From positions 1-45,758 of the forward strand of contig JARHYD010000049.1 in the NCBI GenBank assembly GCA_029258655.1: a DNA stretch of 45,758 bases. Direction: 5' to 3'. The position numbers and the translations under genes are program-made. Positions 24 through 45,636 of this stretch are shown piece by piece. How positions within the stretch are numbered: position 1 is the first letter of the stretch; each line of letters starts with the position of its first letter. Source of the DNA: Mailhella sp. Its GTDB lineage: Bacteria; Desulfobacterota; Desulfovibrionia; Desulfovibrionales; Desulfovibrionaceae. The notes under the pieces were generated by a model. The model saw nothing but the letters and a program-made list of their open reading frames with translations. It was not told the origin of the DNA and did no database searches.

Positions 24-260
24 ATATTCCTCCAAAAGGATTATCTACTAAATTTCTAGGGTTTTTATCCTTACAAACAATAAATAAGTATAATATTTTA
101 TTAGTCTAGGGGGAATTTATAAAAAAATAATTATTTTTATAAAAAAATATTATAACATACTGAATTAATATAAAATATAAAATTAAATTTTATTATTTCC
201 TTTATTATTTTCTATTTTTATTCTTAATTTAAATGAGAAATAACAAAAAAATAATTATAA
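24..260. other. AT-rich intergenic leader upstream of the dnaK-like gene
   Basis: This stretch is almost entirely A and T with no credible open frame. It must hold the promoter of the minus-strand gene that starts at base 23. Several TATTAT-like boxes occur on the minus strand, but I see no convincing paired -35 box, heat-shock sigma-factor promoter or CIRCE inverted repeat, so no promoter is called. Confidence 0.4.
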
Positions 261-509
261 TAGGGTGTGTTTCCAAATTATGTATAATTAAAACTCTGTG
301 TTTTAATAATGAAAATAAAAGACTTACAGTGTAGTGGTATTTATAGATAACTTTTTTATTTTTGAGAAAAAAACTTTTCTACTCATACCCTAAAATAGGT
401 ACATTTATTGAAACATATTTCAATAAATTTGCCTGATTGAGGGGGCTTGGGGGAAATCATTTCCCCCAAAGAAAAAATAGAATAAAATTAATTTAAAAAC
501 ACCCCCTAA
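261..509 (+). mobile_element. MITE-like inverted-repeat element, copy 1
   Basis: The left end reads TAGGGTGTGTTTCCAAATTA and the right end, in reverse complement, reads TAGGGGGTGTTTTTAAATTA, so the ends form imperfect terminal inverted repeats with TA at both edges. Inside are two dyads: a stem at 397-413/418-434 around TTTATTGAAA, and GGGGGAAATCATTTCCCCC at 449-467. The same two-dyad core recurs near 21.55, 36.0 and 45.55 kb. There is no transposase frame inside. TA flanks are typical of IS630/Tc1-mariner type insertion. The mobile nature is inferred; the dyads and repeats are directly visible. Confidence 0.6.
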
Positions 510-11723: not shown

Positions 11724-13049
11724 ATGATACAATTAGAAGATATAAAAAATGCTCTTTATGCAAAAAAGAAGGTTCATGTTGTTGGTGGTGGAGCTTCTGG
11801 ACGTGCTGTTATCAAACTTTTGCAATATCATAATATTCCTCTTGTTTTTCATGAAAAGAATAAAGAAAACCTTTTACCAGAATTTGTAGAATTTTTAGAA
11901 AAAAATACTATTTCTTGTTTTTTTGGTGAACATAAAAAAGAAAATTTTGCAGATTGTGATATATTTATTCCAAGTCCCGGTGCAGCACTTGCAATGTTTA
12001 AAGATTTTCTTCCAAGTACAGCATTAGCTGTTTCTGAAACAGAAATTGCATATCTTTTTTGTGGAAATACCCCAATTCTAGGCATTACTGGAACAAGTGG
12101 AAAAACCACAACCACAACTATTTGTGATGCTATGCTAAAGGCTCAAGGTTTAACTGTATTTACTGGTGGAAATATAGGAACTCCTCTTTCTGAATATGCC
12201 CTTGCCATAACACAAAACCCAAATATAAAAAAAGCTGATGTGATTGTTTTAGAACTTTCAAGTTTTCAATTACAAACTTGCAATGCTCTTAAACCTCATG
12301 TTGGTATTTGTCTTAATATTTCTGCAAATCATTTAGATTATCATGCAGATATGCAAGAATATATTGATGCAAAAATGCAATTATTTGCACATCAAACAGA
12401 AAATGATTTTGCTATCTTAGGACAAGATATTGCTCTATTAGCAAACAAATATCATTTTAAAGCAAAAACAATCATTTTTGATGCCAACAAAAGAAATTTT
12501 CCTAAAACAAAACTTTTAGGACAACACAACCAAAGTAATGCAGAAGCAGCATGGCAAGCTTGCCAGATTTTTGGTGTTAGTTTTGAAAATGCCCAAAAAG
12601 CAATGCAAAACATTTGTCCTATGGAAAATAGACTTGAATTTGTTCGTGAGCTTAATGGCGTAACATATATCAATGATTCTAAATGCACAACAGTTGTTGC
12701 TCTTGAAGTAGCATTAAAAGCTGTATCTGAAGCAAATCACCCTATTATTTTACTTGCAGGAGGAAAATTTAAAGGTGGTGATTTAGAAGCATTGATTCCA
12801 CTTATACAAAAAAATGTTAAACATATTGCTTTATACGGTGGAGGACGTGAATTTTTTGAAAAAGCTTGGCAAGGAAAAGTTGCACTTTCTTATGATGAAA
12901 CCCTAGATCAAGCATTATTGCGTTCCCAACAATTAGCCACACAAAATGATGCTATACTTTTAGCTCCTGCAACTGCAAGCTTTGATCAATTTAAAAGTTA
13001 CATAGCTAGAGGTTCTCATTTTAGAGAACTTGTTCTTCAACTTAATTAG
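11724..13049 (+). CDS. murD: UDP-N-acetylmuramoyl-L-alanine:D-glutamate ligase MurD
   Basis: Adds D-glutamate to UDP-MurNAc-L-Ala. The 441-residue protein has an N-terminal Rossmann-like segment (VHVVGGGASGRAVIKLL), the P-loop GITGTSGKTTTTT, the ELSSFQLQ motif and a C-terminal domain with NDSKCTT and LLAPATASFDQF, all typical of MurD. It follows mraY by 10 bases and precedes ftsW by 16. Confidence 0.95.
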   Translation: MIQLEDIKNALYAKKKVHVVGGGASGRAVIKLLQYHNIPLVFHEKNKENLLPEFVEFLEKNTISCFFGEHKKENFADCDIFIPSPGAALAMFKDFLPSTALAVSETEIAYLFCGNTPILGITGTSGKTTTTTICDAMLKAQGLTVFTGGNIGTPLSEYALAITQNPNIKKADVIVLELSSFQLQTCNALKPHVGICLNISANHLDYHADMQEYIDAKMQLFAHQTENDFAILGQDIALLANKYHFKAKTIIFDANKRNFPKTKLLGQHNQSNAEAAWQACQIFGVSFENAQKAMQNICPMENRLEFVRELNGVTYINDSKCTTVVALEVALKAVSEANHPIILLAGGKFKGGDLEALIPLIQKNVKHIALYGGGREFFEKAWQGKVALSYDETLDQALLRSQQLATQNDAILLAPATASFDQFKSYIARGSHFRELVLQLN

Positions 13050-21503: not shown

Positions 21504-21610
21504 ATAAAAAAACTTTTTCCAATATCCTAAAATAAACAAATTTATTGAAACTTAGTTCAATAAATTTGTCTAATTGAGGAGGTGTGGGGGAAATCATTTC
21601 CCCTACAAAA
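21504..21610 (+). mobile_element. Two-dyad element, copy 2 (core only)
   Basis: The core has a stem ACAAATTTATTGAA/TTCAATAAATTTGT (21536-21549 and 21556-21569), TAATTGAGGAGG, then GGGGGAAATCATTTCCCCT (21586-21604). It matches the copies at 0.4, 36 and 45.5 kb, including the upstream TATAAAAAAACTTT and CCTAAAATA. The terminal GGGTGTGTTT/AAACACACCC sequences are absent here, and the right side runs into the RND gene end, so this copy is truncated or diverged. Confidence 0.55.
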
Positions 21611-35524: not shown

Positions 35525-35868
35525 CTTTAAAGTATGTTTCTTAATTAATCGCATTGTAGTTTTTCTTTTGGGGGGTACCCTATCTTTATCCGTAACTTCC
35601 TGTGTCATAATGGCTCAAGCGAGGGTGAAAGTTTACGAGGTTTAGAGAATTAGACAACAATACTAAGGGGGATTTCCCCTATTAGCTTATACCCTGCACC
35701 CCCAAGCAATGCCTCCCAAGAGTTCTTTCTGGTACACACTTTTTCAGCAAGTCGCTTTGCTCCTCGCTTCCAGAGAGTGAAACCTTTTAAGACAATGCCT
35801 TTATAATTTTTTATTTTATCAGTCTAATATGTTAAAATAATTATAAATATTTTAGAAACACACCCTAA
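35525..35868. mobile_element. Decayed mobile-element-like segment with G+C-richer core
   Basis: The right edge TTTAGAAACACACCCTA (35851-35867) equals the right end of the adjacent two-dyad element. A degenerate left counterpart AGTATGTTTCTTAATTAAT starts near 35531. In between, 35560-35795 is clearly richer in G and C than its surroundings. It holds a minus-strand open stretch (about 35656-35787) reading KGFTLWKRGAKRLAEKVCT and on to GGAGYKLIGEI, with no start codon or ribosome binding site. A 45-bp piece (35578-35622) also matches 550-594. I cannot name the source element. Confidence 0.35.
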
Positions 35869-35874
35869 TATAAT

Positions 35875-36086
35875 AGTATTAGAAAATACTTATAATAAAA
35901 TATTTATGGTTACGATATAAAAACAAAAAACTTTTTTATTTTAAGAGAAAAAATTTTTACTAATACCTAAGATAAGCAAATGTATTGAAACGTATTTCAA
36001 TACATTTGCTTAATTGAGGGGGATTGGGGGAAATCATTTCCCCCAAAAGAAAAAAAAATAAAATTAATTTAGAAACACACCCTAAG
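35875..36086 (+). mobile_element. Two-dyad element, copy 3
   Basis: A perfect 16-bp stem AGCAAATGTATTGAAA (35975-35990) with TTTCAATACATTTGCT (35995-36010) is followed by TTAATTGAGGGGG and GGGGGAAATCATTTCCCCC (about 36026-36044). The right end is AATTTAGAAACACACCCTA. The left part shares ATAGTATTAGAAAATACT with copy 4. Compared with copies 1 and 4, the stem carries changes on both arms that keep pairing. Confidence 0.6.
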
Positions 36087-45454: not shown

Positions 45455-45636
45455 GTATTAGAAAATACTCATGATTACTATGCGAAAATAAATAACTTTT
45501 TTATAAAAAAACTTTCTACTCATGCCCTAACATAGGTAAATTTATTGAAATTTATTTCAATAAATTTACCTGATTGAGGGGGCTTGGGGGAAATCATTTC
45601 CCCCAAAAAAATAATATTAATTTAAAAACACCCTAA
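45455..45636 (+). mobile_element. Two-dyad element, copy 4
   Basis: A perfect 17-bp stem AGGTAAATTTATTGAAA (45534-45550) with TTTCAATAAATTTACCT (45555-45571) is followed by GATTGAGGGGGCTT and GGGGGAAATCATTTCCCCC (45586-45604). The right end is AAAAACACCCTAA. Upstream it shares AATAGTATTAGAAAATACT with copy 3. It separates the DUF1848 gene from the converging HAD gene and may end transcription of either. Confidence 0.6.

Follow-up and report, generated by a model that had tools for sequence, protein, structure and literature searches.

The window, that is, the whole stretch of 45,758 nt analyzed here, contains 4 copies of a repeat built from 2 adjacent hairpins, and the dyad that concerns us is palindrome 1, the first of these hairpins, in copy 3 (Table 1). 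The original prediction had quoted the copy 3 sequence at 35975-36010, and this sequence is present there letter for letter. It had also claimed that at least 3 positions differ from copy 4 on both arms at once, that pairing stays perfect in each copy, and that copy 2 is different again and still pairs. We observed that copies 3 and 4 do differ on both arms, at exactly 3 stem pairs, numbered 9, 14 and 16 from the loop, where the changes are G-C/T-A, C-G/T-A and A-T/G-C, respectively, and that both stems are perfect; in copy 4 a 17th pair, A-T, lies immediately outside the tabulated segment. Perfect pairing does not extend to copy 2, which is paired apart from a single mispair, its innermost A.G, or to copy 1, which had not been quoted and whose stem has 2 mispairs, C.T and T.G.

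Table 1. Positions in the window of the elements of copy 3 and of the other 3 copies of the repeat
Feature	Positions	Strand	Remarks
Copy 3, palindrome 1, left arm AGCAAATGTATTGAAA	35975-35990	+	Read from the window sequence
Copy 3, palindrome 1, 4-nt loop CGTA	35991-35994	+	Read from the window sequence
Copy 3, palindrome 1, right arm TTTCAATACATTTGCT	35995-36010	+	Read from the window sequence
Copy 3, GGGGG tract between its 2 hairpins	36018-36022	+	GGGGG also in relatives
Copy 3, hairpin 2 GGGGGAAATCATTTCCCCC	36026-36044	+	Motif recurs across the family
Copy 3, right terminal inverted repeat (TIR) TTAGGGTGTGTTTCTAAAT	36067-36085	-	
Copy 1, complete MITE-like element with both TIRs	260-508	+	Palindrome 1 at 398-433, hairpin 2 at 449-467
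Copy 2, palindrome 1, then a degenerate hairpin 2	21535-21570	+	Loop at 21551-21554
Copy 4, palindrome 1 GGTAAATTTATTGAAA TTTA TTTCAATAAATTTACC	45535-45570	+	Hairpin 2 at 45586-45604

Copy 3 is without a left TIR of its own and adjoins the TIR of another repeat at 35850-35868. This neighbor, at 35565-35868 directly upstream of copy 3, belongs to a second, more G+C-rich repeat family that has the same TIR at its end, and pieces of it recur beside other copies (e.g. L041, L060, L076). Farther along, immediately downstream of fliS, the segment 36107-36138 folds into a 14-bp hairpin without mispairs (AAAAAAAACTTCTC/GAGAAGTTTTTTTT) that has runs of T and A and is likely a bidirectional terminator.

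The dyad is best explained as the first palindrome of a double-hairpin DNA module that is dispersed in intergenic regions and occurs in the window's own family, judged from the closest ketol-acid reductoisomerases to be the Desulfovibrionaceae. The plan of the module is palindrome 1, whose sequence is free, then 5-9 nt, a GGGGG tract, 2-4 nt and hairpin 2, GGGGGAAATNATTTCCCCC; at the foot of the palindrome we found TGATTGA, CAATGA, ATATC or GCAACAA, followed by GGGGG. Triplex or slipped pairing of duplicated GGGGG/CCCCC tracts is conceivable from the sequence, although runs of G and C do not distinguish parallel from antiparallel pairing. Over a hundred copies are present in the 2.14-Mb genome of the window (G000), and 130 of them were used in several of our counts. 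The pattern TTGAAA..TTTCAA followed by GGGGGAAAT matched this genome 90 times, with 0 matches for the backwards control; a search pattern of this kind, which contains part of the stem, forces pairs 1-6 to 100%. Among 297 genomes of the order, the exact hairpin 2 motif with GGGGG was found in 39, representing 13 genera, all of the window's own family; in the other families of the order there was none, and the backwards control was again 0. In 5 other genomes of the window's genus, BLAST matches covered mostly the right half of the repeat, that is, hairpin 2, and most of the copies examined there carry a differently sequenced palindrome in the place of palindrome 1. Conservation of hairpin 2 is strong, yet this hairpin shows one double change, from GGGGGAAAT..ATTTCCCCC to GGGGGGAAT..ATTCCCCCC. 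No account of this repeat turned up in the papers that could be searched, including a search on Desulfovibrio.

Part of the G000 copy number is due to MITE amplification, since the ends of the element that carries the module are shared with a decayed transposase. This MITE-like element is non-coding and has a median length of 263 bp. With up to 4 mismatches allowed to the ~20-bp TIR, both TIRs were found in 24 of 130 copies, the left one in 48 and the right one in 55 (reversed-text control, 0); many copies, copy 3 among them, are truncated or composite. A decayed match to DDE_Tnp_1 (PF01609), with stops, lies at G000:C22:12219-12614 between TIRs at 11830 and 12664, and the TIRs of this decayed IS5/IS4-type insertion sequence match the ends of the MITE-like element. 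Many elements have TA at both ends, which in an AT-rich genome may or may not reflect a target-site duplication. The element resembles MITEs of IS5/IS4-type insertion sequences in its ~20-bp TIRs on 2 sides, its TA ends, its non-coding nature and the presence in the same genome of a decayed DDE_Tnp_1 element with matching ends. Unlike such MITEs, however, the double-hairpin module is also found without TIRs and in other genera, so that the MITE is the carrier of the module and not its definition; the module is older than the MITE.

Several loci depart from the general plan. At L176, L184 and L195, and at L021, L031, L040 and L179, all in G000, the palindrome at the same site before GAGGGGG is unrelated in sequence (AGCCAGATTATTTTGAATAGTCAAAATAATCTGGCT) or like a gene terminator hairpin. 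At L004, L024, L031, L049, L063, L073, L075, L185 and L205 of the same genome, hairpin 2 stops after GGGGGAAATCATTTC and is followed by GCTTTAGCCGTTACGACAAAGGAAGTTA..., which represents an insertion or a longer variant of the element. A third G000 repeat, AGGGGGAAAACTTTTGAAAAAGTTTCTCCCCCTAAAACCCCC... (L012, L016, L025, L052, L058, L061), is built in a similar way, with a hairpin, a duplicated C5 tract and then often a terminator-like hairpin; ten TTTTGCRYGCAAAA-type hairpins have fully compensated outer pairs. In G004/G005, at loci L220, L221 and L263, 2 modules in inverted orientation, spaced about 340 bp from each other, lie on either side of a sequence that has a TIR-like end, and similar inverted module pairs occur in G001 (L230, L235, L244).

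For the analysis of covariation between arms we used 88 G000 copies that were gathered through an exact match to hairpin 2 only, were chosen to have the GGGGG tract, and were kept where the stem was homologous. Standard pairs made up 95.8% of the 1,342 stem cells in this alignment, as compared with a mean of 91.3% in shuffles. Cells changed on both sides numbered 57, against 14.6 ± 3.0 in shuffles (the observed number was reached in 0 of 500), and such cells fell to 6-12 when the partner columns were slid by 1-3 positions. When whole right arms were shuffled 2,000 times, such cells averaged 14.6 and never exceeded 25, as compared with 58 observed. Kinship among the copies was handled with a tree constructed from the left flanks alone, on which 43 both-arm Watson-Crick changes fell on single branches; 30 arm shuffles gave 7.1 on average and never more than 12. 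The covariation between the arms is real, and it has arisen many times.

On the same flank tree, all 43 double Watson-Crick changes are located in pairs 7-16, and pairs 1-6 show 0 double and 30 single changes. Single-arm changes in total (108) outnumber the double changes, so any correction of one arm by the other would be incomplete. Loop-closing position 0 exhibits pyrimidine..purine variation without clear covariation (chi-square about 3.4, an estimate). The original prediction had named independent arm changes in a larger alignment as the result that would refute it; such changes were not seen for pairs 7-16, whereas they were seen at pairs 1-6 and at position 0.

We also examined G090 and G071, 2 complete genomes from a genus other than the window's. 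Their 19 palindromes, with arms of 19-25 bp and 3-nt loops, have 414 of 418 pairs in Watson-Crick form (99%), the leftover mismatches being 1 G.T and 3 A.C; the same scan found no long palindrome at 3 of 22 motif copies. Among copies that share an upstream block, the arms differ by 44% from copy to copy (33% with gaps allowed), the upstream flank by 27%, and hairpin 2 plus 26 nt by 5%, and the mismatch between the 2 arms within a copy is 0.4%. The outer and inner ends of these palindromes are conserved (CCGGGCG, GC-nnn-GC). From ~50 copies, only 2 loci emerged with intact palindromes in both genomes, and the orthologue test is confined to these. At L317/L321 (86% identical over 3 kb by BLAST) the palindromes differ at 8 pairs, all on both arms, and the changed pairs are 8 of 9 adjacent pairs, without an intermediate; at L311/L324 (about 85% by BLAST) they differ at 3 pairs, again all on both arms. 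The 2 loci together give 11 double changes and 0 single changes.

Sister copies in G000 show footprints of arm rewriting. L052 and L002 have in common a unique composite flank (95.4% over 175 nt), and the left flank beside the stem has the usual form, GCCCTAACATAGGC, in L002 and reads GCCCCCTCAATCAGGC in L052. When reverse-complemented, the L052 form matches the right flank of that copy exactly, which shows that symmetry has been extended past the end of the stem. An ancestral extended palindrome at L052 is unlikely, given the sister copy L002; the extended palindromes of L183, L191, L199 and L201 could in principle be ancestral. In L009 and L190, whose sister relation (89% over 103 nt) is weaker than that of L002 and L052, the right arms are nearly identical and the left arm of L009 differs at about 9 positions; in L009 the 2 arms are exact reverse complements of each other. 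Complementarity of several bases acquired by an arm in one step, as is expected from a template switch, was thus observed in L009/L190, in L052/L002 and at the orthologous loci. The original prediction had preferred selection or replacement preserving a structure to drift. Preservation of a structure is strongly supported by the covariation, and replacement has direct support from the sister copies with rewritten arms; of the structures it had in mind, the RNA hairpin is disfavored, as described below.

Selection on an RNA stem is expected to leave G.U in preference to A.C on the transcribed strand. The mismatches in the 88 aligned copies were 42 G.T and 36 A.C, or 26 and 28 when pair 16 was left out, and a second method, in which pairing was extended differently and all 130 G000 copies were used, gave 26 G.T and 55 A.C. 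By neither method, nor in G090/G071, was there an excess of G.T on the + strand. Folding energy favored the + strand in 26 copies and the - strand in 30, and was equal in 67; as the minus strand does not fold better, the A.C excess of the second method is unmatched by a minus-strand signal. Only 1 of 130 copies lies inside an ORF, and 47 are located between convergent and 7 between divergent ORFs, which here are simple open frames and not curated genes; copies in tandem gene pairs have no orientation preference (23 versus 20). There is no T-tract directly after the stem of copy 3, where the next sequence is TAATTGAGGGGG on the + strand and TATCTTAGG on the - strand, and an Rfam search of the window gave no match. 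The similar numbers of G.T and A.C, the lack of a better-folding strand and the unbiased tandem orientation, all of them properties read from sequence, argue against an RNA hairpin.

On balance, we lean toward the explanation that the covariation arose through template-switch copying of arms at the DNA level, on a module kept by some DNA-level use or by mobility. Replication would stall and the nascent strand would fold back, prime on the inner, loop-proximal stem, and copy the opposite arm outward (quasipalindrome correction, or template switching), so that a change in one arm would be carried to the other in a single event. With its arms homogenized in this way, palindrome 1 would stay symmetrical with or without selection, and the module itself would be maintained by some use as DNA, possibly a cruciform, a protein site or transposition. 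Template switching is the agent that we infer from the footprints. If the inner stem serves as the fold-back primer, double changes are expected in pairs 7-16 and none in pairs 1-6. However, a protein-bound core would predict the same absence of double changes in pairs 1-6, and the conserved inner core of the G000 palindromes, TTGAAANNNNTTTCAA, might serve as a protein site instead of a primer. The conserved outer and inner ends in G090/G071 look like constraint, which alone might explain the clustering of changes in mid-stem, and the block changes at the orthologous loci could be due to gene conversion with another copy. Persistence over 13 genera implies selection or mobility, beyond what template switching alone supplies.

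An unlikely alternative is stepwise compensation driven by selection on a DNA dyad, in which recognition by a protein or as a cruciform needs 2 matching half-sites and uncompensated single-arm mutations are removed. The near-perfect symmetry in G090/G071 would be expected from it, as would the conserved inner cores (that of G000, GTAAACNNNGTTTAC in G003, and GC-nnn-GC in G090/G071), the strong conservation of hairpin 2 with a double change of its own, and the placement of copies away from promoters. Yet a sequence-specific protein would not tolerate arms that diverge by 44% between copies of one genus, a 16-bp site does not require the rewriting past the stem end in L052 and L009, and at one orthologous locus the block of adjacent pairs changed without an intermediate. 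It is doubtful, to a somewhat greater degree, that the repeat represents a class of self-templating palindromic elements, in which a dedicated process would use one arm of the first palindrome to regenerate its partner, the sequence of this palindrome drifting fast and hairpin 2 remaining constant in many genera of one family; the candidate process would be a structure-specific activity or a mobility cycle that passes via a DNA hairpin.

We consider improbable an RNA hairpin in 3' untranslated regions, selected for pairing in the transcript as a terminator, stability or processing element. The intergenic, 3'-end-associated placement of the copies is in its favor, and some palindrome-1 copies of relatives resemble intrinsic terminators (L221, L263), but it is opposed by the strand and mismatch data given above, including a single G.T among 418 pairs in G090/G071, and by the missing T-tract and Rfam match in the window. 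Very improbable is subfamily inheritance alone, by which a few master copies with perfect, differing stems were amplified by transposition and no arms co-evolved in place. Stem types common to many copies (e.g. GGCAAATTTA, GGTAAATTTA) are consistent with such a history, and so are the elements with 2 TIRs and the related decayed transposase in the same genome. Against it stand the double changes on separate branches of the flank tree, 43 where chance gives 7.1, the sisters L002 and L052, which differ by arm rewriting, and the double changes in place at the 2 orthologous loci, unless gene conversion replaced whole palindromes there.

Work with E. coli QP reporters has established that template switching can make the arms of inverted repeats identical (PMC7202029), and a template-switch origin has been inferred for RNA stems, in ancestral rRNA (PMC8794818). 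Our repeat is like these quasipalindrome cases in that arms become identical in one event, adjacent compensatory changes occur together, and the palindrome can be extended by copying. Those reports cover engineered reporters, rRNA and microRNA stems, whereas the present case is a dispersed bacterial repeat family with near-perfect arms and fast turnover, in some copies of which symmetry reaches past the consensus stem. Like REP/BIME and RAYT systems (GTAG/CGTC tags, PMC3733652; REPINs, PMC3116915), the repeat has short palindromes that are dispersed in intergenic DNA and whose stem variants are complementary. However, G.T pairs are a frequent feature of GTAG repeats (PMC3733652) and show no enrichment in our repeat. 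Neither a GTAG nor a CGTC tag was found at the foot of the palindrome, and a search for the Y1 (RAYT) transposase PF01797 gave no match in G000, G001, G003, G090 and G237, genomes that all have copies of the repeat and mostly many; on these 2 grounds membership in the REP/RAYT group was rejected. The repetitive or double hairpin-forming elements of sponge mitochondria (PMC2800124) are likewise dispersed single and double hairpins. In most of those elements the stems are conserved and substitutions occur in loops (PMC2800124), whereas here the sequence of the stem turns over and its pairing is kept.

Compensatory changes are commonly taken as proof of a selected RNA stem. The repeat described here provides a large natural set in which strong stem covariation occurs without the marks of RNA selection and with marks of arm-to-arm copying of DNA, orthologous loci included, and it calls for caution when covariation is used to discover RNAs in the intergenic DNA of bacteria. 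As a natural test bed, the set also allows a quantitative look at the persistence of perfect palindromes and at the extent to which template switching alone can mimic selection.
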